Assembly: GCF_017357865.1 (NCBI RefSeq)
Contig: NZ_CP060096.1
Coordinates: 1,116,001-1,180,000 of the forward strand
Length of the DNA stretch: 64,000 bases
Direction of reading: 5' to 3'
From: Aceticella autotrophica
Lineage (GTDB): Bacteria > Bacillota > Thermoanaerobacteria > Thermoanaerobacterales > Thermoanaerobacteraceae
Shown: positions 22,033 through 33,602 of the stretch, piece by piece
Layout of the letters: every line of letters begins with the position of its first letter
Numbering within the stretch: the stretch's first letter is position 1
Made by a program: the position numbers and the translations under genes
Notes under the pieces: model-generated
What the model was told of the DNA's origin: nothing
The model's database searches: none
The model's input: only the letters and a program-made list of their open reading frames with translations

Positions 22033-22072
22033 ATTATCATAATATATAATAAATTATAAGCACATATGTTTT
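22022..22072 (+). promoter_or_regulatory. recA promoter with LexA-like operator
   Basis: TTGACT (22022-22027), 17 nt, perfect TATAAT (22045-22050). The 14-mer AGCACATATGTTTT at 22059-22072 covers the expected start point and matches 10 of 14 positions of the Gram-positive SOS box CGAACATATGTTCG, keeping the central ACATATGTT. This suggests LexA control of recA; no lexA gene lies in the window. Confidence 0.65.
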
Positions 22073-22092
22073 TGAGGTCGGGAGGAGAAAAA

Positions 22093-23121
22093 ATGATAGA
22101 GAAACAAAAGGCCCTTGATATGGCAATAAACCAAATTGAAAGACAATTCGGAAAAGGTTCCATAATGAAACTTGGTGATAATAGCAGGTTAAATGTTGAG
22201 GTGATTTCTTCCGGTTCAATAGACCTCGATATTGCACTAGGGGTTGGCGGTATTCCCCGCGGAAGAATCATAGAAATATTTGGACCGGAATCCTCAGGTA
22301 AGACAACAATTGCTTTACATATATTGGCAGAAGCGCAAAAGATTGGTGGGACAGGTGCGTTTATAGATGCTGAGCATGCACTTGACCCTACTTATGCAAA
22401 AAAATTAGGTGTCAATATAGATAATTTATTGGTTTCACAGCCAGATACTGGTGAACAGGCATTGGAGATTGCAGAAGCACTTGTAAGAAGTGGTGCTGTC
22501 GATGTTATAGTAGTTGATTCTGTTGCCGCATTGGTTCCAAAAGCCGAAATAGATGGAGAAATGGGTGATGCACATGTTGGCTTGCAAGCAAGGCTTATGT
22601 CTCAAGCCTTGAGGAAGTTATCAGGTGTGATAAGCAAATCAAAATGTATTGTTGTATTTATTAATCAATTAAGGGAAAAAGTTGGAATTATGTTTGGCAA
22701 TCCTGAGACAACACCTGGAGGTAGAGCATTAAAATTTTATTCCACAATTAGATTAGATGTCAGGAAAATTGAATCATTGAAACAAGGAAATGATGTTGTC
22801 GGGAATAGGACGAGAGTAAAGGTAGTAAAAAATAAAGTAGCTCCACCGTTTAAACAGGCAGAATTTGATATAATGTATGGTGAAGGTATTTCAAAAGAAG
22901 GAAGTATTTTGGATTTGGCGGTCAGTATAAACGCAGTAGAAAAAAGTGGAGCATGGTATTCATATAATGAAGTTAGACTGGGGCAAGGAAGAGAAAATGC
23001 CAAACAATATTTAAAAGAAAATAAAGAACTTTTAGCAGAATTAGAGAATAAAATAAGGGAAAATTTTAACCTTGTGCACAATGATGTTAAGATTGAAAAT
23101 GCAGATGTATCAACAAAATAA
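22093..23121 (+). CDS. recA: Recombinase RecA
   Basis: Homologous recombination and SOS co-protease. Walker [10 protein letters not shown] from residue 64, [12 protein letters not shown] (Walker B), [10 protein letters not shown] and the [16 protein letters not shown] block are all intact. 342 residues. I take the ATG at 22093 ([10 protein letters not shown]), which has GGGAGGA upstream; the ATG at 22066 lies inside the LexA-like box and has no site. A terminator follows directly. Confidence 0.97.
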
Positions 23122-23183: not shown

Positions 23184-23786
23184 ATGTATATAACAATGAT
23201 AGAAAAGCAAAAGAAAAATAATAAGAGGTTTAATATTTATATCGATAATAAATATGTGTTTTCTGCATCATATGAGGAATTAAATTTTTTAGATTTAAAA
23301 GAAGGTAAAGAAATAGATGATGAACACTATAATTACTATTTAAACTATCTTCTTAAAAGAAAAGCTGAAAATACAGCAGTTCAATTTCTTTCATATAAGA
23401 TGAGGACAGAAAAGGAATTACAAGAAAAACTAAAATCTAAGGATTTTCCTGATGACATTATAAATGATATTATTTTTAAATTTAAGGAACTAAAATATAT
23501 AGATGATAGATATTATGCAGAATTATACATTGAAGAAAAAAAAGAACAATTACATAGTAAGTACAGAATATTTTCCGAATTAAAGGTGAAAGGAATAGAT
23601 ACAATAATAATCTCTGATGTACTTGAAGATAAATATCCTGATGAATTGGAAATTATAAAGAGAATTTTATATAAAAAGCGTAAAACTTCAAAAGACATTG
23701 TTAAAATAAAAGCTTATTTATATAGAAATGGCTTTAAGATTGATGATATAAATAAAGCCTTGAAATTGGAGGAACTTAAATCATAG
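23184..23786 (+). CDS. recX: Regulatory protein RecX
   Basis: Modulator of RecA filaments. 200 residues built of three-helix repeats: YLLKRKAENTAVQFLSYKMRTEKEL, LKYIDDRYYAELYIEEK and the C-terminal DIVKIKAYLYRNGFKIDDINKAL. The start has only a moderate site (AGTGGTG). It lies 62 nt after recA behind the terminator, and its stop codon touches the left end of an IS607-type element. Confidence 0.88.
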   Translation: MYITMIEKQKKNNKRFNIYIDNKYVFSASYEELNFLDLKEGKEIDDEHYNYYLNYLLKRKAENTAVQFLSYKMRTEKELQEKLKSKDFPDDIINDIIFKFKELKYIDDRYYAELYIEEKKEQLHSKYRIFSELKVKGIDTIIISDVLEDKYPDELEIIKRILYKKRKTSKDIVKIKAYLYRNGFKIDDINKALKLEELKS

Positions 23787-23821: not shown

Positions 23822-23850
23822 TTGATAAAACATAATAAATATAATATAAT
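23822..23850 (+). promoter_or_regulatory. Promoter of IS607 tnpA
   Basis: TTGATA (23822-23827), 17 nt, TATAAT (23845-23850). Only 6 nt separate the -10 element from the tnpA ATG, so the mRNA would be leaderless or nearly so. Confidence 0.6.
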
Positions 23851-23856
23851 GAAGGT

Positions 23857-24507
23857 ATGGAATTATTAACTATAAGCAAAGCAGCAAAGAAAATAGGTGT
23901 CCATCCCAACAGCCTGCGCAACTGGGAAAAGCAAGGTTTAATCAAGCCTGTCCGTTTGCCAAGTGGTCAGCGCCGATACTCCATAGACGAACTCAATAAG
24001 CTTTTGCAATCCGGACAGATAAACACTGGGCAGGAAGACGTTGTTTTATATGCCCGGGTATCCACCAAAAAGCAGGCAGATGCCGGCAATTTAAACAGAC
24101 AACTGGAAAGACTGAGACAATATGCTGATGAATCAAATTACCGTGTCGTTGCCGAGTTCACCGACGTAGCCAGTGGCTTAAATCAGAAGCGCCGTGGATT
24201 GACAAATGTATTCAAGCTGGCTGAACGTGGTGAATACAAGAAGCTTATCATCGAATATCCCGACCGACTGACACGATTTGGGTATTCGTACATCGAACGG
24301 CATTTGCATTACTGTGTGGTGGAAGTAATCGCTATAGCCGAGAAAGAGCCAGAAGACGCACAATCCGAGCTGGTCAGGGACTTATTGGCGATAATCACGT
24401 CTTTTTCAGCTAAGCTGTATGGCACCAGAGGAGGTAAGAAGATAAGGCAGGGTTTCCGGGAACTGATAACGGAGGTGAAGCCAGATGAAGAAAAGGAAAA
24501 AGAATAA
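23857..24507 (+). CDS. tnpA: IS607 family serine recombinase TnpA
   Basis: Site-specific recombinase that moves the element. Residues 1-50 form a MerR-type helix-turn-helix (LTISKAAKKIGVHPNSLRNWEKQGLI, then PSGQRRYS); the small serine-recombinase domain follows with YARVSTKKQ, Ser69 being the nucleophile, and EYPDRLTRFG. Length 216 is normal for IS607 TnpA. The C terminus overlaps tnpB by 23 nt. All catalytic motifs look intact, so the element may be mobile. Confidence 0.93.
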   Translation: MELLTISKAAKKIGVHPNSLRNWEKQGLIKPVRLPSGQRRYSIDELNKLLQSGQINTGQEDVVLYARVSTKKQADAGNLNRQLERLRQYADESNYRVVAEFTDVASGLNQKRRGLTNVFKLAERGEYKKLIIEYPDRLTRFGYSYIERHLHYCVVEVIAIAEKEPEDAQSELVRDLLAIITSFSAKLYGTRGGKKIRQGFRELITEVKPDEEKEKE

Positions 24508-26179
24508 TTCATACAGCCCTGACGATAATAAAAACACCGTCTGCGGTGAACCGGAAATCTACCCTGCCTTCCGCTCAAAAAAGTGGAGCCGTGGGATGGA
24601 GGACCCGCTAAATACCGAGATGAGGTTGTTCTGCTCTTGTACTCGCTGGGCATTCAACCGGCTGCAAGAAGATAAATCACGTGAAAAACTAAAAAAAGAA
24701 GGTCAGCAGGTATTTGGCTTAAACGTACGATACTGTGATGATGCCATACTGAAAGCCAAAGCCATAATCGAATCTCAAAAAGAGCTTTTAAAAATGGAAA
24801 AAGAAGAAACAAAAACAAAACTGACCCGTGCGAAGAAGAAACTCAGTTGGGCAGAAAAAACCTTAGATAAAGCTGTTGAAAAAAACGATTCAGAAAAAAT
24901 CAAAAAATTAAAGCGCACTGTACACGGTCGCAAAGCCAGGGTGAAAAAACTATCTGATAAACTCGATGAGTTAAAGGTTCACGAAGACAATGGCACCATA
25001 CCTACAGTAGTCTTTGGTGGTCATTCTTTGTGGAAGAAAGTTTGCAAAGGCAGGATTCCGATAGAAGAATGGAAACAGGCACGTCAAGACAGGTTATATT
25101 CCCGCGGAGACAAGACCAAAGGCGGTAATCCAAACATCAAGATAAGCGAGTATAACGGAGAATTCTTTTTATCAGTAACCATTTCTCACCTGTCTGAGCA
25201 AAAAGGCACGGATAAAAAAGATAGACCAATAATGACCAGAGCGCCCCGTGTAGAAGGCAGGCTGTGGCTGCCGGATAAATACCGTTCAAAGGTATATGAA
25301 TTACTTTTATCCCGTGCACCTTATACAGTAGAACTTATCAAAGGCAAGGATGACAGGTACAGGGCACATATCAGTTTCGACTTAATACCGCCTGATTTGA
25401 CAACCAATCCCGACTACGGATATTTAGGTATGGATACCAACCCTGACGGTATAGCGCTTGCCAATGTCGGTTGCACCGGTCAACCAGAACCATGGGCAAA
25501 GAATTTTAACGTACCATACCCAAAAGCCCTGCACAAATTTGACGGTGAATTTCAGATAAAGATACATCCAAATGGTTTTCTTTATATCAAGATACCAGAA
25601 CTATCTTACAGTTCTGGATACCGGCGTACTTACTTAGTCGGTGTGTTAGCCAAGATAGTAGTAGACATTGCTAAAGCCTTGGGTAAACCCATAGCCTTAG
25701 AAAAGCTGGACTTCGGGAAAGACCATCTAAATACCAACAAAAAATTCAACCGCATGGCAGCCAATTTCCCTTTTAAAAAGATGGTCGAAGCTGTCATACG
25801 CAGGGCTTTCAAAGAAGGAGTAGGTGTAAAGCAGGTATGGCCAGCGCACACGTCAACCATAGGTTACTGGAAGTACAAAAAGAAGTACGGCATAATAATA
25901 CACCATGCCGCAGCATTGGTGATAGCCCGTCGTGCACTGAATTACAAAGAACATATAACAAAAGAATTAAAACAGAAAGTTCAAGTCTTTAAAGAGAAGC
26001 TGAATCAAAAGGCAAATTCCTTGCCTGGGGAAGGAAGAGGGATGACCCGAAAGGTGAAGCAGATGTTCAAGAAACTGGACGGAAAGATTCTTAATTTTAA
26101 CGGTTTAACCCGTTTCAAACAGGAATCATTTTATTCCGTCTGGCATGACTTGAAGATTCTTGCTTTATCAAGTAGGTGA
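24485..26179 (+). CDS. tnpB: TnpB, RNA-guided nuclease-type protein of the IS607 element
   Basis: A 564-residue TnpB homologue. An N-terminal coiled, Lys-rich region (about 80-165) is longer than in the compact TnpB of IS605. RuvC-I is GMDTNPDG (D317) and RuvC-II is LEKLDF (E406). At RuvC-III, where an acidic residue normally precedes the alanine-rich helix, it reads I471-I-H-H-A-A-A-LVIARR, with no Asp. The CxxC...CxxC zinc finger usual between RuvC-II and III is also absent. ATG with GGAGGTG inside tnpA. It may belong to a clade with a rearranged active site or be inactive as a nuclease. Confidence 0.88.
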   Translation: MKKRKKNNSYSPDDNKNTVCGEPEIYPAFRSKKWSRGMEDPLNTEMRLFCSCTRWAFNRLQEDKSREKLKKEGQQVFGLNVRYCDDAILKAKAIIESQKELLKMEKEETKTKLTRAKKKLSWAEKTLDKAVEKNDSEKIKKLKRTVHGRKARVKKLSDKLDELKVHEDNGTIPTVVFGGHSLWKKVCKGRIPIEEWKQARQDRLYSRGDKTKGGNPNIKISEYNGEFFLSVTISHLSEQKGTDKKDRPIMTRAPRVEGRLWLPDKYRSKVYELLLSRAPYTVELIKGKDDRYRAHISFDLIPPDLTTNPDYGYLGMDTNPDGIALANVGCTGQPEPWAKNFNVPYPKALHKFDGEFQIKIHPNGFLYIKIPELSYSSGYRRTYLVGVLAKIVVDIAKALGKPIALEKLDFGKDHLNTNKKFNRMAANFPFKKMVEAVIRRAFKEGVGVKQVWPAHTSTIGYWKYKKKYGIIIHHAAALVIARRALNYKEHITKELKQKVQVFKEKLNQKANSLPGEGRGMTRKVKQMFKKLDGKILNFNGLTRFKQESFYSVWHDLKILALSSR

Positions 26180-26425
26180 CCCCGTTTAGCCGGAGTACGG
26201 AAACAACCGGTAAGTCTAATCTAACAGATTGCGGGAGGCAGACTACAGTCTCGCTTAACGGTCAACGCAAGACGGAAACCCTTATGGTTTTCCATATGAC
26301 CGTGTTTTGCGCCCGTAAAGCGCTGTTCTCCCGTCCGGGTGGGACTCCCAGGACTGAGATCTCCCTGTCACCCCAGAGAAAAATTTATCAAGGAGGTGTA
26401 AAACCTGGTCATGGGGAGGTCGGGT
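26180..26425 (+). ncRNA. Candidate omegaRNA/reRNA and right end of the IS607 element
   Basis: No convincing gene lies here, though a 107-codon frame is open. The stretch is GC-rich and full of local pairings: AGTCTAATCT with AGATT...AGACT, GGAAACC with GGTTTTCC, and CGCAAGACGG with CCGTGTTTTGCG, plus GGGTGGGACTCCC. TnpB proteins use an RNA made from the 3' end of tnpB and the element's right end, with the guide running past the end; this stretch sits exactly there. The class is inferred from position and folding only. Confidence 0.55.
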
Positions 26426-26460
26426 TTACAAAAGTTAATTATTGTTATGTAAACTTTTTT
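26424..26460 (+). terminator. Terminator-like hairpin just before nurA
   Basis: GTTTACA (26424-26430) pairs with TGTAAAC (26448-26454), followed by T6 (26455-26460). It ends 17 nt before the nurA start, so it may stop IS607 transcripts or act as an attenuator for the nurA operon. Confidence 0.5.
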
Positions 26461-26477
26461 GAACCAGGGGAATTGAA

Positions 26478-27644
26478 TTGCTTAACAGAAGTAAATTGAT
26501 GCCAATGATTTATGAACTTGTCAACAATGATAAAAATTTTTTAAATAATATTAAAAAGTATCTCCATAATGCTTTTGAAGAATATAAGAAAATTCAGGGA
26601 AACGAAGAAGAACTAATAAAAAAGATCAAAGATAGTAATACATCCTGGTTAACTGCAATACCGATAGAAAATTTTAGCTCCATAAAACCGCTTCCTTCTG
26701 TACCTGTAAACTATTCTGTTCTTGCGGTAGATGGTTCACAAATAATGCCGGATCATCATGAAATAAGAATATGTTATTTAATCAATATAGGATATGTCAT
26801 ATTAAGTTATGGTCAAAATTCTTATGCAACAATGAATAGTATTCCAACATTATTTTATAAAGAAGAAGAACTTTATAAAGATACAAATGGTTATAAAACA
26901 TTTATAACTCAAAAAGACCTTTCGTTCAAAAGAACTATAATGGAATATAATAAGATATTTGAATGTATCTCTGAACTTGATAAAGATATATCAATGGCAT
27001 TTATTGATGGAACTTTAATCGAATGGATGGTACAAGGAGATGAAAATGAATCTATTATTATCAGCAGTATATTAAAAACTTTTAATAAGGCAAAAGAACT
27101 TAATATACCATTAGTGGGATATTTAAGTTCTCCTAAAAGCAATGATTTTATAAATATGCTTAGGGTTTGTATATGCCCTTCAAAGGCAGTAAATTGTAAT
27201 ACATGCAGTTATCTTAAATCCGGTAATAATCTTCCATGTAACAAGATAAGCAAGATAAATGATTCGGATTTGTTTTCCATAATATTGAAAGATGGAGAAC
27301 GCTCTCCAATGTTTTTAAGCACGTCCCATATATTGGAAAGATATGGGGAGCATAAAATTGCATTTTTCTACATGAATACCGGAAGCGAAATATCAAGAAT
27401 TGAAATCCCTTTTTGGGTTACAGAAAAAAGTGAACTTGTAGATTTCATACATGCCGCATGTTACGACCAGGCAAAAAAAGGAAAGGGATATCCCATATCG
27501 CTGCAGGAAGCTCATGAGCAGGCAGTTGTATCAGGAAATGATAGAGAAATGTTTTATAATATGCTTTCTAATATATGCGTAAAAAATGGGATTAAGATGT
27601 CGAGGTCTTATAAATCCCAGAGGAAGAGGAGTGGTATTTTGTGA
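26478..27644 (+). CDS. nurA: NurA-domain nuclease
   Basis: A 388-residue protein with the NurA fold, a 5'-3' nuclease that works with the HerA translocase in DNA end resection. Active-site aspartates are visible in LAVDGSQIMPD and AFIDGTLIEW, with a late HAACYDQAKKGKGYPISLQEAHEQAVV block typical of NurA. Two cysteine pairs (CICPSKAVNCNTCSYL) lie in the middle. TTG start with AGGGGAA upstream; an in-frame ATG at 26499 is an alternative. Its last codons overlap the next gene (GTGA), the start of a coupled operon. Confidence 0.83.
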   Translation: MLNRSKLMPMIYELVNNDKNFLNNIKKYLHNAFEEYKKIQGNEEELIKKIKDSNTSWLTAIPIENFSSIKPLPSVPVNYSVLAVDGSQIMPDHHEIRICYLINIGYVILSYGQNSYATMNSIPTLFYKEEELYKDTNGYKTFITQKDLSFKRTIMEYNKIFECISELDKDISMAFIDGTLIEWMVQGDENESIIISSILKTFNKAKELNIPLVGYLSSPKSNDFINMLRVCICPSKAVNCNTCSYLKSGNNLPCNKISKINDSDLFSIILKDGERSPMFLSTSHILERYGEHKIAFFYMNTGSEISRIEIPFWVTEKSELVDFIHAACYDQAKKGKGYPISLQEAHEQAVVSGNDREMFYNMLSNICVKNGIKMSRSYKSQRKRSGIL

Positions 27645-28210
27645 AGCATATAGGTGAAATTATTGAAACAAATACAAAGATGTTCGAATGCCAGTCTGTA
27701 AAACTTGATGAAAGTCCGGATTTTGGTGGATTTGTAAAAGTTATCTCAAATGATATGACGATTTATGGTATAGTTTTTAATATTTGTACAATGAGTGAAG
27801 ATATTACACGAAAACCAGTTGCGTTTGGATTAACTGAAGAAGAATTACGTAGGCAACAACCTCAAATATTTGAATTGATGCATACATATTTCAAAGTATT
27901 GATAATCGGTTATAAAAAAGAAGGTTACAGAGGTATTTTGCCACCAAGACCTGCAAAAATACATTCATTTGTGTATGATTGTGAAAGGGAGGATTTAATA
28001 GATATATCTAAAGACCTTAATTTTTTAAAAAACATTTTAAATGGGCAAACAGGTATTGAAGAAGAATTAGTGGCATCGGTTATTCGTAATTTATCAAAAG
28101 TAGTTCTTGAAAAGGATTGTTACATGATAACAGTAGGTAAAGAACTTATAAGGCTTTTAAAAAATGATTTTGACAGGTTTCTAACAATAAAAAGGATGTG
28201 TAAGATATGA
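27641..28210 (+). CDS. Uncharacterised protein of the NurA-HerA operon
   Basis: 189 residues, no family recognised with confidence. The N-terminal part (HIGEIIETNTKMFECQSVKLDESPDFGGFVKV) looks like a small beta-barrel comparable to the HAS-barrel at the start of HerA; the C-terminal half is helical (DLNFLKNILN...VASVIRNLSKVV...LIRLLKNDFDRFLTIKRM). It overlaps nurA by 4 nt and herA by 4 nt (ATGA), so its product is made in step with both. A role as an adaptor between nuclease and translocase is a guess from context. Confidence 0.75.
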   Translation: MKHIGEIIETNTKMFECQSVKLDESPDFGGFVKVISNDMTIYGIVFNICTMSEDITRKPVAFGLTEEELRRQQPQIFELMHTYFKVLIIGYKKEGYRGILPPRPAKIHSFVYDCEREDLIDISKDLNFLKNILNGQTGIEEELVASVIRNLSKVVLEKDCYMITVGKELIRLLKNDFDRFLTIKRMCKI

Positions 28211-29805
28211 AAGGTAATCTGTTTAGAGGTTCTATAACATCAGGATTGGAAATCAAATTATCAGATGGAAATATAATCGAAGATGTGAAAGTTGGAAATT
28301 TTGTTGTAATTCAAGGGAAAAAAAATAAATATTTATGTATGGTAACAGATATTAAATTTGAGGCTTTAAATCCACAGATGCTTATAAATGGCATAAATAT
28401 TGAAGATGATATAGATGAAAAGATAATAGATGGTACAGGAGTATATGGTGTTATAACATTATCACCAATGATACAGGTTGATGGAGAGGGAAATGCTATT
28501 TCTGTAAAATCTATTCCTGCATATGGTTCATTAGCTCAGGATGCAAATGCTGAAGATATATATAATGTATTTGGGATACCTTCAGAAGAAAATTTATACA
28601 TTGGAACACCCCCGGAGATGGACATACCAATTTGTATTAATTTAAAAAAATTGGTGGAACGTAGTACAGGAGTATTTGGAAGAGCCGGTACAGGTAAAAC
28701 ATATCTAACAAGGCTTTTATTAGCTGGTCTTGTAAAATCTAAGTGTGCTGTTAATTTAGTTTTTGATGCACATAATGAATATGGTTATGAAGCCAAAAGA
28801 GAAGGGGGTTCAAAGGTAAAAGGCTTAAAACAACTATTTGGGAGTCAGGTAGCGATATTTACACTTGACAGAGAATCGTCACTTCGAAGGGAAGTACCTG
28901 TAGATGGGGTTCTAAATATTGCATATAATCAAATAACACCTGATGATATAATGCTGTTAAATTCTATGCTGAACTTGAATAATACAGCACTTGAAAGTAT
29001 CTATCAAATGATGAAGGCAGAAAAAAACGATTGGCTTTATAAGTTTATCAAAATGGATTCATCGGAAATTGAAGAATATGCTGAAGAAATAGGTGCAAAT
29101 GGAAATTCACTTCAAGCGTTAAAAAGAAAGCTGGAACGATTAACAAGACTTCCTTTTTTAAAACATATTGTTCCATCTGACTGTGTTAAACAAATAATGG
29201 ACTTTTTACAAAAAGGCATAAATGTTGTCATTGAATTCGGCAATGTATCTACGCTTGGTTATATGCTTGTTGCAAACATAATTACAAGGCATATTCATGA
29301 AATGTATGTAAAGGCATCTGAAAAATCCATAGCAAATGACAGTAAAGAACCAACACCCCTTGTAATAACAATTGAAGAAGCCCATAGGTTTCTTGACCCA
29401 TCAATTTCAAGAGAAACAACTATGGGTGAAATAGCAAGAGAAATGCGTAAATATAATGTTACATTATTAATTGTAGATCAACGTACTTCTCAAATAGATT
29501 CTGAAGTATTATCACAGATAGGCACAAAGATTACCTGTAGGCTTGAAGATGATAATGATATAAATTCGTTTTTATCAGGTGTAAATAATGCAACAAAATT
29601 GAGAAATGTACTTGCAAGTCTCGATCAAAAACAGCAGGCTTTGATTTTGGGTCATGCGGTTCCTATGCCTGTTGTTATAAAAACAAGAAATTATGATCAA
29701 AATTTTTATAACGATGTATCAACATTTTCAGAAGATGATTTTATTAATAAGCCTTTTTTAAAGCTTTTAGAAGAAGAAAAAGTCGATGAACTATTTCCAG
29801 ATTAG
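28207..29805 (+). CDS. herA: HerA-type DNA translocase ATPase
   Basis: Hexameric FtsK/HerA-superfamily ATPase of 532 residues. An N-terminal HAS-barrel (1-90) precedes the motor with Walker A GRAGTGKTYL (G158-T165), Walker B VITIEEAHRFL and the late DQRTSQIDSEVLSQIGTKITCRL motif with its arginine finger candidates. In archaea and Deinococcus, HerA partners NurA and Mre11-Rad50; the neighbours here are the same set. ATG overlaps the preceding stop. Confidence 0.88.
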   Translation: MKGNLFRGSITSGLEIKLSDGNIIEDVKVGNFVVIQGKKNKYLCMVTDIKFEALNPQMLINGINIEDDIDEKIIDGTGVYGVITLSPMIQVDGEGNAISVKSIPAYGSLAQDANAEDIYNVFGIPSEENLYIGTPPEMDIPICINLKKLVERSTGVFGRAGTGKTYLTRLLLAGLVKSKCAVNLVFDAHNEYGYEAKREGGSKVKGLKQLFGSQVAIFTLDRESSLRREVPVDGVLNIAYNQITPDDIMLLNSMLNLNNTALESIYQMMKAEKNDWLYKFIKMDSSEIEEYAEEIGANGNSLQALKRKLERLTRLPFLKHIVPSDCVKQIMDFLQKGINVVIEFGNVSTLGYMLVANIITRHIHEMYVKASEKSIANDSKEPTPLVITIEEAHRFLDPSISRETTMGEIAREMRKYNVTLLIVDQRTSQIDSEVLSQIGTKITCRLEDDNDINSFLSGVNNATKLRNVLASLDQKQQALILGHAVPMPVVIKTRNYDQNFYNDVSTFSEDDFINKPFLKLLEEEKVDELFPD

Positions 29806-29822
29806 AAAGGTGGTAAAATTCC

Positions 29823-31037
29823 ATGATAAATATAGCACATGCAGCGGATATACACATTGGCATTGAAAATTATGGTATAATTGACAAGGATACTGGATTT
29901 AATACAAGATTAATTGATTTTTTAAAATCTCTTGATAGATTTGTAGTATATGCCTCGGAAAATTGTGATATTGCTGTTATTTCGGGAGATATGTATAAAA
30001 CAAGGGAACCTAATCCAACACATCAAAGGGAACTTGCTAAAAGGATAAAAAAATTATCTGAAAAAATCCCTGTCGTTATTAATAACGGTAACCATGATCA
30101 ACCTAATTCAGATACTAAAGCAAGAGCATTTGATTTATATAAGATATTAAAAGTTCCCAATGTTTATATAGCAAATAAGCCAGATATATTTTTGATTAAT
30201 ACAAAGAATGGACCATTGCAAATTGCGTGCTTGCCCTATTTCCCTAAAAATTTATTGCTTAAATTTGAAGAAAATAGAAATTTATCAATAGATGAAATTA
30301 ATTCAAAAATGATAGAAAAAATAAATAATCTTGTAAGTATTTTGACGAACCAACTTGACTCAGAAATTCCAGCCATATTGTCAGCACACCTATCTGTTAC
30401 AGGTGCAATAACAAGCAGTGAAAAAAATATTATGATTGGGGATGAAGTCATTATACCAGTAAGCATACTTGCAAGACCCCAATATAAATATATTGCCCTT
30501 GGACATATTCATAAATACCAAGTTATATGGGATAAACCATTAACAGTATATAGTGGAAGTATTGAAAGAATAGATTTTGGCGAAGAGAAAGATGAAAAGG
30601 GATTTTGCCATGTAATAATTGATAGGGATAATGTATCACATAAATTCATTAATCTTCATGCAAGACCTTTTAAAACAATTAAGATAGAGGTTGAAGGAGA
30701 AGATCCAACCCAAAAAATAATAGATAGAATAAAACATATAGAGTTAGATGACAGCATTGTCAGGCTTATCTTGAAAATCACAAAGGATGCTGACAGAAAA
30801 ATACGATATAGGGAAATCAATAAGTTAATGATAGAAAAGTGCTATTACTTTGTAGGTATAAATAAAGATATAGATTCTGATAAAAGTGCTTTAAGAAATC
30901 CTGAAGTTACTGAACAACTTAACCCCATAGATGCACTTGAAAAATACTTTTTATCAATTGAACTTGATGTAGATAAAAGTGAATTAATCAAAAGGGCGAA
31001 TATTTTGTTTAATGAACTTAAAGAAGAGGTGAATTAA
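29823..31037 (+). CDS. SbcD/Mre11-type exonuclease subunit
   Basis: Calcineurin-like metallophosphoesterase of 404 residues with the five Mre11 motifs: HAADIHIG, ISGDMYK, NNGNHDQP, SAHLSV and LGHIHK. The C-terminal part (about 290-404) would bind the SbcC coiled coil. 17 nt after herA, AGAAAGGTGG upstream. It forms the nuclease half of the SbcCD/Mre11-Rad50 complex with the next gene. Confidence 0.88.
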   Translation: MINIAHAADIHIGIENYGIIDKDTGFNTRLIDFLKSLDRFVVYASENCDIAVISGDMYKTREPNPTHQRELAKRIKKLSEKIPVVINNGNHDQPNSDTKARAFDLYKILKVPNVYIANKPDIFLINTKNGPLQIACLPYFPKNLLLKFEENRNLSIDEINSKMIEKINNLVSILTNQLDSEIPAILSAHLSVTGAITSSEKNIMIGDEVIIPVSILARPQYKYIALGHIHKYQVIWDKPLTVYSGSIERIDFGEEKDEKGFCHVIIDRDNVSHKFINLHARPFKTIKIEVEGEDPTQKIIDRIKHIELDDSIVRLILKITKDADRKIRYREINKLMIEKCYYFVGINKDIDSDKSALRNPEVTEQLNPIDALEKYFLSIELDVDKSELIKRANILFNELKEEVN

Positions 31038-31040
31038 CAA

Positions 31041-33602
31041 TTGATTCCTTTAAATTTAAAATTGAAAAATTTTATGTCATACTCTGATAATGAAAGCCTT
31101 GATTTTACTAAATTTCATGTTGCGGCTATAGTTGGAGAAAATGGAAATGGAAAATCATCTTTATGGGATGCAATAACATGGTGTATATGGGGAAGAGCCA
31201 GAGGACTTGATGCGGCAGGAAGAGGTGCTGATGACCTTATAAGAATTGGCGCTGATGAAATGGAAGTAGAATTTACTTTTAGAATAGAAAATACAAAATA
31301 TCGAATTTTGCGCAAGAAAAAAAGAAATTCATCATCTATTCTTGAATTTAATATCATTACTAATGATGAAACATTTAAATCATTGACACAGGAAAAGATT
31401 ATTGATACTGAAAAAAAAATAAAAAATACTATAATGCTGGATTATGATACATTTATAGCATCGTCATTTATGCCTCAAAATAAAGATGGTTTTTTTTCAG
31501 AAGTTGAACCAACAAAAAGGAAGGAAATTTTTTCAGAAATTCTTGGGCTTGATATCTATAATAAATTACAAATAAAAGCGAGAGAAAAGAGAATTGAATA
31601 TGAACAAAAGCTTGTTATAATAGATGAACAATTAAAAATGTATTCAAGGGATATAGAAGATAAAAAAGATATCATTAAAAGGAAAGAGGAAAATGAAGAA
31701 TTATCCTTCAAAAAACAACTTATTTTAAATGAATTAAATAAACGCTTAGAAGTACTGCTTGAAAAGAAAAAAGAAATGGATGAAGTAATTTTAAAGATAA
31801 AAGAGTTTTATGATAGAATTGAAAGAGATAAAAAAATAATTAGTGAATATAAAGAAATGCTTTTGGATATCGAGAATAAGAGGAAAGAATTGAAGGACAT
31901 ATTAAATAACGAAGACAATATAATTAAGGGATTTAATAATTTTATGGAAATTCAAAATAAACTAAAAAATCTTGATGGCAAATATATATATTTTAATGAA
32001 TTGGAAAAATCAAAAACGGAAATTCAAAATAAGATTAATTCTATAAAAAAAGAGAAGGAAATGGAACTTAAAAATTTAATCTCTCGTTATAATGAATATT
32101 TAGAAGAACTTGATAAATTAAATAATCATGAGATAGAATTAAAAGAACTTATTAAGAAAATGCCTGATTTCGACAATCTTGAAAATCAATTTAAACAAAT
32201 CGATGAAAAAATCATTGTTTTAAATACCAAATTGGTTGAAAATACAACTATAATTTCAACTTACAATAAAAAAATTAAAGAATTGAATGAAAACTATAAT
32301 AAGATACTAAATACTGGTGCGATATGTCCTACATGTCATACAGCACTTAATGCTGAAAAAAAAGAATTACTTTTAAATGGATTTAAAGAAGAAGAAAAAG
32401 ATTATAAAATACAAATATTTACTAAGAAAAAAGAAAACGAAAAATTAGTTAGAGAAATAAATATGCTTAAAAATAATAAAGATAATATAAATAATTTACT
32501 TTTACAGAAAAACGAATTTCTTGTTAGGATTAATACATTAAAAAATAAATTATCTGAAAGAGAATTTAAAATTAATAAAATTAAGGAATTACGTGAAAGA
32601 ATAGAAAAATTAAATGATATAATCAATACTGAAAATTATGCAATTAATGAAAAAGAAGAGCTTTCATTAATCCAGACAGAAATAACCAAATTAAATTTTT
32701 CATTTGAAAATTATAAATTAGTCAAGTTGAAATATGATAAATATAAAAAATATGAAAAACTGATGGAACAATTAAATATTTCAAAACAAACTATTGTTAC
32801 CTATGATAAAACATGTGAAACATATATAAAAAATATTAAAATTTATGAAGAAAATTTAGAAAAAGACAAAAAAACTATGGAATTTTTAAAAAAACAGAGT
32901 AAGGATTATGATATGTTAATAGAAGATATAAACAAATTAAAAATTGAAATTAAAAATGAAAATAAAGATTTCCTTAACATTAATATTAATCTATCTACTT
33001 TAACAGAAAAAATAAATAATATAAACACCATTGAAGACAAAATAAATCTTTTAAAAAAAGACAGAGAAAAAAATGCTATGGAAAGACATTATTATGAAAT
33101 ATTAGAATATTCATTTGGCAAAAAAGGTATACAGGCATTAATAATTGAAAATGCAATACCAGAATTAGAAGATATAGCAAATAATATTTTATCAAAACTT
33201 TCAGATGGCAAGATGTACTTAAATTTAATAACACAGAAGATAAATAAAAATGGTTCTGTATTGGAAACTTTAAATATCGAAATATCAGATGATGTTGGTA
33301 CAAGAAAATATGAATTATTCAGTGGGGGTGAAGCATTTAGAATAAATTTTGCACTTCGTATAGCACTTTCAAAATTTTTGTCAAAAAGAGCAGGAGTAAA
33401 ATTGCAAACATTAATTATTGATGAAGGCTTTGGCTCTCAGGACAAAATTGGGAGGCAAAACATTATTGATGTACTTAATCTTATTAAAGATGAATTTGAA
33501 TTAATCGTTGTAATTTCACATTTGGAAGATTTTAAAGATAGTTTTCCATATATAATTAATATTACAAAAGATGAAAATGGCTCTCATATAAATTGCTTGT
33601 GA
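31041..33602 (+). CDS. SbcC/Rad50-type ATPase
   Basis: 853-residue SMC-like ATPase. Walker A GENGNGKSS from residue 32; two very Lys/Glu/Asn-rich coiled coils; a zinc-hook CPTC at 429-432 at the turn; then the signature LFSGGEAFRINFALRIALS and Walker B TLIIDEGFGSQD. The length is close to archaeal Rad50 and shorter than E. coli SbcC (about 1050). TTG start, AGAGGTG upstream, 3 nt after the SbcD-type gene. Tethers and processes DNA ends with its partner. Confidence 0.9.
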   Translation: MIPLNLKLKNFMSYSDNESLDFTKFHVAAIVGENGNGKSSLWDAITWCIWGRARGLDAAGRGADDLIRIGADEMEVEFTFRIENTKYRILRKKKRNSSSILEFNIITNDETFKSLTQEKIIDTEKKIKNTIMLDYDTFIASSFMPQNKDGFFSEVEPTKRKEIFSEILGLDIYNKLQIKAREKRIEYEQKLVIIDEQLKMYSRDIEDKKDIIKRKEENEELSFKKQLILNELNKRLEVLLEKKKEMDEVILKIKEFYDRIERDKKIISEYKEMLLDIENKRKELKDILNNEDNIIKGFNNFMEIQNKLKNLDGKYIYFNELEKSKTEIQNKINSIKKEKEMELKNLISRYNEYLEELDKLNNHEIELKELIKKMPDFDNLENQFKQIDEKIIVLNTKLVENTTIISTYNKKIKELNENYNKILNTGAICPTCHTALNAEKKELLLNGFKEEEKDYKIQIFTKKKENEKLVREINMLKNNKDNINNLLLQKNEFLVRINTLKNKLSEREFKINKIKELRERIEKLNDIINTENYAINEKEELSLIQTEITKLNFSFENYKLVKLKYDKYKKYEKLMEQLNISKQTIVTYDKTCETYIKNIKIYEENLEKDKKTMEFLKKQSKDYDMLIEDINKLKIEIKNENKDFLNININLSTLTEKINNINTIEDKINLLKKDREKNAMERHYYEILEYSFGKKGIQALIIENAIPELEDIANNILSKLSDGKMYLNLITQKINKNGSVLETLNIEISDDVGTRKYELFSGGEAFRINFALRIALSKFLSKRAGVKLQTLIIDEGFGSQDKIGRQNIIDVLNLIKDEFELIVVISHLEDFKDSFPYIINITKDENGSHINCL

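Follow-up and report, generated by a model that had tools for sequence, protein, structure and literature searches.

In archaea the genes of the nuclease NurA and the DNA-translocating ATPase HerA form an operon with those of Mre11 and Rad50 (nurA-herA-mre11-rad50). Published structures place NurA on the HAS domain of HerA (PMC12977600, PMC9960219): in Thermococcus kodakarensis the HAS alpha1 helix and the loop preceding it touch NurA (PMC12977600), and in Deinococcus radiodurans NurA is held by the HAS-barrel of HerA (PMC9960219). Bacterial NurA-HerA pairs are described for the Deinococcus-Thermus group. In Thermus the nurA stop codon overlaps the herA start with no gene between them, and Oceanithermus profundus carries sbcD-sbcC downstream of hepA, i.e. 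nurA-herA-sbcD-sbcC (PMC5448004). According to a structural paper from 2023 (PMC9960219), bacterial NurA-HerA is limited to few bacteria lacking RecBCD, e.g. Deinococcus-Thermus; what it does in vivo is a matter of dispute. A review mentions homologues in Firmicutes and Cyanobacteria (PMC8708640); a further paper concerns BREX and in its accessible part does not mention NurA (PMC12839542). HerA translocases also act together with an effector partner in Sir2-HerA and DUF4297-HerA systems. Here we describe a related locus of Aceticella autotrophica, located in a window of 64,000 bases (bases 1116001-1180000 of the 2,267,618-base single-contig genome, NZ_CP060096.1), in which an additional gene, named hasX here, lies between nurA and herA.

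Five open reading frames (ORFs) at 26478-33602 of the window are tightly packed in the order nurA-hasX-herA-sbcD-sbcC (Table 1). Overlaps of 4 bases join nurA to hasX and hasX to herA, followed by gaps of 17 bases between herA and sbcD and 3 bases between sbcD and sbcC. An initial annotation of the window had called five coupled genes for NurA/HerA and Mre11/Rad50-like proteins at these positions and had noticed their likeness to the archaeal set. Coordinates, spacing and profile matches bear out the former, and so do gene calls and family profiles the latter, since all four enzyme families of the archaeal operon are linked here. The folds of NurA and of HasX/HerA also match solved archaeal proteins. 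In contrast to the archaeal operon, the locus contains the fifth gene hasX, its SbcD and SbcC score as bacterial proteins, and its HerA falls into a bacterial clade. In our favoured reading, which we regard as somewhat probable, HasX functions as a subunit in a bacterial NurA-HerA-SbcCD machine for DNA-end processing.

Table 1. Coordinates of the operon and its upstream neighbours (positions within the window)
Feature	Position	Strand	Description
recA	22066-23121	+	First gene of the ancestral cluster in the sister genus
recX	23184-23786	+	RecX_HTH1-3 matches
IS607-type element (approximate ends)	23857-26477	+	MerR/serine recombinase, TnpB-like protein, structured 3' region; outside the proposed machine
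nurA	26478-27644	+	388 aa, RNase H-fold nuclease; PF09376 E=2e-37
hasX (gene X)	27641-28210	+	189 aa; predicted HAS-barrel alone plus C-terminal helical domain
herA	28207-29805	+	532 aa, hexameric-type DNA-translocating ATPase with its own N-terminal HAS-barrel
sbcD, operon type	29823-31037	+	404 aa, Mre11-like phosphoesterase
sbcC, operon type	31041-33602	+	853 aa, compact Rad50-like ATPase, CPxC zinc hook

The expected catalytic residues are conserved in all four enzymes. The AlphaFold2 (AF2) model of NurA has a predicted local distance difference test (pLDDT) score of 91, and its top fold matches are the solved NurA structures 2ygk, 3taz and 1zup. Among 24 aligned rows D85, E156 and D177 are invariant and Y338 and H346 are kept in at least 90%; we take D, E, D, Y and H to be the catalytic set of NurA. 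The PF09376 match, the fold and the invariant acidic residues together identify the NurA domain of a NurA-HerA pair. A possible further difference from the archaeal operon is that this NurA carries an insert with four cysteines (C233, C240, C243, C254; each kept in at least 90% of the 24 rows), which probably forms a zinc site. HerA combines a HAS-barrel (PF09378, E=4.6e-6) with the FtsK-HerA motor (central domain PF01935, E=2.7e-33); its Walker A motif GxxGTGK and the EEAH motif are invariant in 10 rows, so that barrel, motor and Walker A/B motifs of a HerA are all present. SbcD reaches 117.8 bits with TIGR00619 (cut-off 77.65), as a bacterial SbcD does, and its metal ligands are invariant in 11 rows. 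SbcC matches AAA_23 (E=2.2e-24) and Rad50_zn_hook; C429, P430 and C432 as well as the Walker A, Walker B and signature motifs do not vary among 11 rows. Phosphoesterase ligands, ATPase motifs and zinc hook of an SbcCD (Mre11-Rad50) pair are therefore in place, and both proteins score highest with the bacterial sbcD and sbcC models. They nevertheless differ from canonical SbcCD: on a profile of the operon-type SbcD, the canonical SbcD of another genus of the order (g2) scores 115-119 bits, versus 410-415 for two members from other phyla and 636.7 for the protein studied here, which marks a distinct subfamily. SbcC is compact (853 versus 1183 residues) and stays under the TIGR00618 cut-off.

The new part of the set is hasX, which is named by no tested curated model beyond "HAS-barrel". 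HasX barely exceeds the cut-off for this domain (PF09378, 26.0 bits, cut-off 25.2), which is detected in 18 of 30 HasX members at E≤0.1. A profile comparison between HasX and the HAS-barrel of HerA was insignificant (probability 1.9%), so the link between the two rests on Pfam and on structure. The AF2 model (pLDDT 93, predicted template modelling score 0.87) consists of a beta-barrel, a helical insert at residues 66-79, which holds the conserved stretch EEEL..QPQI, and five C-terminal helices at 116-188. All 50 matches listed by Foldseek are HerA-family chains (TdpA counted among them). In a fold-match list covering residues 1-155, VIA Z values were 11-14 against HerA-type crowns and about 10-11 against ATP synthase barrels. 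Both the Pfam score and the best match of the model to HerA crowns assign HasX to the HAS-barrel fold, predicted here to be of the domain type through which HerA binds NurA. By analogy, its helical insert may be equivalent to the NurA-contacting HAS element of T. kodakarensis HerA. NCBIfam gave no match for any of the 30 members, PADLOC yielded stray weak matches in a few of them and no good model, and a sequence search for solved structures related to HasX or to the NurA of this operon returned none that was significant. No third NurA-HerA subunit was found in the open-licence literature searched, nor is one reported in the accessible part of the description of the D. radiodurans pair (PMC9960219).

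To assess the distribution of the operon we surveyed 299 evenly drawn Bacillota genomes with a HasX profile and with a HerA profile at E≤1e-30. The HasX profile matched 11 genomes from 5 families and 6 genera, and the HerA profile matched the identical 11. All seven regions retrieved from Bacillota of other families (L084-L090) keep nurA-hasX-herA-sbcD-sbcC in unbroken order; the same five-gene order occurs in a Tectomicrobia locus. Identity of hasX across the distant Bacillota loci is 23-48%. Lack of conservation among relatives, which the initial annotation had named as a point that would speak against its reading, is thus not what we found: the five-gene order is conserved across distant Bacillota. 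In other families of the order (L067, L068, L070, L071) we observed a different arrangement, namely nurA, a herA of about 620 residues, an Mre11-like gene and a short Rad50-like gene (431-486 residues), with no hasX between nurA and herA.

In a HerA scan of named genomes, 80 loci were taken from at least 562 confirmed relatives. hasX was present in the herA locus in 25 of the 80, and nurA as well in 21, in the order nurA-hasX-herA; contig ends cut some of the loci. Genome-wide follow-up searches covered 24 of the 55 loci that lack hasX, together with the 4 where hasX stands without nurA; these 28 genomes belong to other phyla and had been identified by this HerA. hasX was found in all 28 genomes and NurA in 26, with nurA and hasX adjacent in 10. 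Among 36 genomes of unstated completeness, 33 gave strong matches to the operon-type SbcD (245-561 bits; in one genome divided into two), usually unlinked; of the remaining three, one had a generic 44-bit match only and two had none. Within the 299 Bacillota genomes 12 scored at least 532 bits on this profile, the next best value being 193. These were the 11 genomes with the operon and G111, a metagenome-assembled genome of 85% completeness with an operon-type sbcD-sbcC pair (L222 11256-15052) and no hasX or HerA match in the genome. Over 28 loci, chosen without the rows with a short NurA and without locus L093, the distances of NurA, HasX and HerA correlate with r=0.94-0.96, and permutations reached 0.29 at most; as the comparison has no species-tree control, it shows co-inheritance only. 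The set is present in many phyla, frequently accompanied by AddAB-like enzymes, and includes a conserved additional protein.

The initial annotation had placed the operon directly beside recA-recX. In the sister genus Thermoanaerobacterium (g3) recA-recX-nurA-hasX-herA are contiguous in all nine genomes (one of which has nurA divided over two frames), and sbcD-sbcC-rny follow downstream in all six regions retrieved. In the window, a 2.6-kb IS607 element that is absent from all sister-genus loci separates recX from nurA. The linkage to recA is therefore ancestral and has been broken in the window by IS607: the link itself stands, its directness does not. In the seven other Bacillota regions we found no match to recA or recX, and the recA link is therefore lineage-specific.

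Whether the archaeal route replaces or accompanies the bacterial end-resection enzymes had been left undecided in the initial annotation. A genome search found full-length AddA (1273 bits, cut-off 707.65) and AddB (1286 bits, cut-off 903.7). A replacement of AddAB by the operon was therefore rejected, and the NurA-HerA route is additional to it. Among 24 genomes of the order AddA lies above its cut-off in 11, i.e. the genome studied here and all ten of genus g2, and AddB in 10 (the same genome and nine of g2; the tenth is split over three frames). Genus g2 is without this operon; two of its ten genomes have a distant NurA only, which adjoins a HerA-like protein in the one genome examined. In g2 sbcC adjoins addA in all ten genomes, with sbcD alongside in the nine loci available. 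At the corresponding locus of A. autotrophica (L060 3915-8807) the expected sbcDC is absent, and murJ and other genes are found instead. The search for a second sbcCD suggested in the initial annotation was run and yielded none: the operon-type profile finds a single SbcD match in the genome. The SbcCD of the operon thus appears to have taken over the role of the canonical sbcDC found beside addA in g2, a direction of exchange that we infer. In Thermoanaerobacterium (L066 3097-9523) the operon occurs together with a divergent AddAB-like pair, far under the AddA and AddB cut-offs, both with PDDEXK_1. Of 44 genomes with all or part of the system, a count by eye gave 29 in which a frame of 800 residues or more carries PDDEXK_1 and 15 in which none does, and there is consequently no fixed rule for the co-presence of AddAB-like enzymes.

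These findings are consistent with the following model. SbcCD, being of the Mre11-Rad50 type, would recognise and trim blocked DNA ends, and HerA would then pass duplex DNA through its ring into the nuclease NurA. HasX, a HAS-barrel alone with a helical tail, would be a dedicated third subunit of NurA-HerA. As the HAS-barrel is the fold by which HerA builds its crown and holds NurA, HasX would most likely dock at the interface of HerA crown and NurA as an adaptor or clamp, within a putative physical complex. RecA, whose gene stands first in the cluster of the sister genus, would receive the resulting single-stranded or shortened DNA. In A. autotrophica the set would act beside AddAB and provide the sole SbcCD. 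In vivo the machine may serve recombination or defence. Should HasX be a required subunit, studies of two-protein NurA-HerA in vitro may, as far as this bacterial branch is concerned, have missed the component that determines activity or strand choice. More tentatively, and to our minds doubtful in its full extent, the five components might form a pan-bacterial "resectosome" in which HasX builds a HAS ring of its own or a mixed ring with HerA. This would fit the six-fold motor onto a NurA dimer of two-fold symmetry and couple NurA-HerA in function with a dedicated subfamily of SbcCD, also where, as in cyanobacteria, the five genes lie scattered over the chromosome.

Several observations weigh against a HasX-containing machine. 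Archaeal and Deinococcus NurA-HerA are active in vitro without a third protein. As two-protein pairs work and the HerA studied here retains its own HAS-barrel, there is no obvious need for HasX. NurA is missing from two of the 28 follow-up genomes and the operon-type SbcD from three of 36, and G111 has SbcDC without hasX or HerA. We also counted 15 sites resembling the SOS box GAACNNNNGTTC with at most one mismatch in the window (10.6 expected), none of them before recA or the operon, which speaks against SOS control. Finally, it is disputed whether NurA-HerA itself acts in resection: the complex of T. kodakarensis cuts both strands (PMC12977600), and Deinococcus tolerated damage better after losing nurA-herA (PMC9960219).

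We considered four other explanations, two for the operon as a whole and two for HasX. The equality of enzyme set and linkage with the archaeal operon, the patchy occurrence in Bacillota (11 of 299) and a host that is presumably thermophilic, judging by its kinship, would fit the view that the NurA-HerA-Mre11-Rad50 resection operon was recently imported from archaea by horizontal transfer. The sequences argue otherwise, and we consider such an import quite improbable. Beyond the sister genus the nearest HerA relatives are bacterial, mostly with 43-54% identity, and their clade includes Chloroflexota, Cyanobacteriota, Gemmatimonadota, Latescibacterota and others. The HerA tree (91 rows, none of them archaeal; quick method, midpoint root) is structured by phylum, with Cyanobacteriota as one group and two changes for Chloroflexota. 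The Bacillota lineages lie near the root on long branches, and several long-branch joins may be false according to a warning of the program. Solved archaeal HerA proteins match this HerA at E about 1e-16 only; the pattern used for the named-genome scan may miss archaeal HerA, so that their absence there proves nothing. Furthermore SbcD and SbcC score as bacterial, and hasX is extra to the archaeal set as described in papers. An archaeal origin was therefore not borne out, and archaeal import was rejected as the leading reading. The operon is probably a widespread bacterial set without recent borrowing from archaea; a very ancient exchange may still be compatible with a HerA tree that has no archaeal rows.

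An anti-phage or anti-plasmid system, in which HerA drives foreign DNA into NurA and SbcCD serves as end sensor, appears unlikely to us, if less so than the archaeal import. In its favour, the operon is patchy in Bacillota, relatives of HerA serve in the defence systems Sir2-HerA and DUF4297-HerA, there are matches to the HerA profiles of PADLOC (best 2.6e-35), and destruction of viral DNA was proposed for T. kodakarensis (PMC12977600). Like those two systems the operon pairs a HerA translocase with an effector. The partner is, however, NurA instead of Sir2 or DUF4297, HasX has no PADLOC model apart from stray weak matches, and the neighbours recA/recX and rny/ymdB are housekeeping genes, with recA and rny kept in all six sister-genus regions. 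In addition, the operon is single copy, its HerA tree largely follows the phyla, no hasX or such HerA was detected in phage, plasmid and viral-contig collections at the sensitivity used, and plasmids yielded no match when searched with the DNA of hasX-herA. The use in defence proposed in the initial annotation thus did not find support. As for HasX, a transient regulator or loader that opens the HerA ring on DNA or blocks NurA until DNA is engaged is conceivable and somewhat less improbable than a defence role: hasX goes with nurA and not with herA in several genomes (the 10 of 28 with adjacent genes), and the protein has an additional C-terminal helical domain. Nothing directly opposes this, yet the best fold matches are to a ring-forming HAS crown. 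A HAS-barrel without motor domain could also be a decayed HerA paralogue that is retained by linkage and has no role. We give hardly any credit to this, as hasX is retained across phyla when unlinked from herA and contains near-invariant positions in the alignment of 30 rows.

The IS607 element consists of a serine transposase (23857-24507; NF033518 E=3.5e-57) and a TnpB-like protein of 564 residues (24485-26179; guided_TnpB E=4.9e-15). The latter is followed by about 300 structured bases that resemble a guide-RNA region and abut the nurA start; an Rfam search of the window gave no match. An aspartate of the RuvC-III motif in a related ORF (L090 14538-16151) aligns with a histidine in the window copy, the motif being what we presume to be RuvC-III in TnpB-like ORFs. 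Because of this replacement, the TnpB-like nuclease of the window may be inactive. A ribosome-binding-like AGGGG is kept ahead of the TTG start of nurA, and a promoter-like site at 23822-23850 belongs to the IS607 element and could now drive the operon.

In G004 (L069 7121-10038) a distant NurA-HerA-like pair has other surroundings, with a recombinase-like ORF at a distance of about 2 kb, and is possibly a mobile or defence module. A 664-residue AAA_23 ORF near 906 kb of the A. autotrophica genome has no phosphoesterase among the three neighbours scanned. It stands in a row with a ResIII/PLD-domain helicase, a small uncharacterised protein and a sigma-70-like protein (902-910 kb; L232 1685-7666), and this row looks like a candidate defence cluster.

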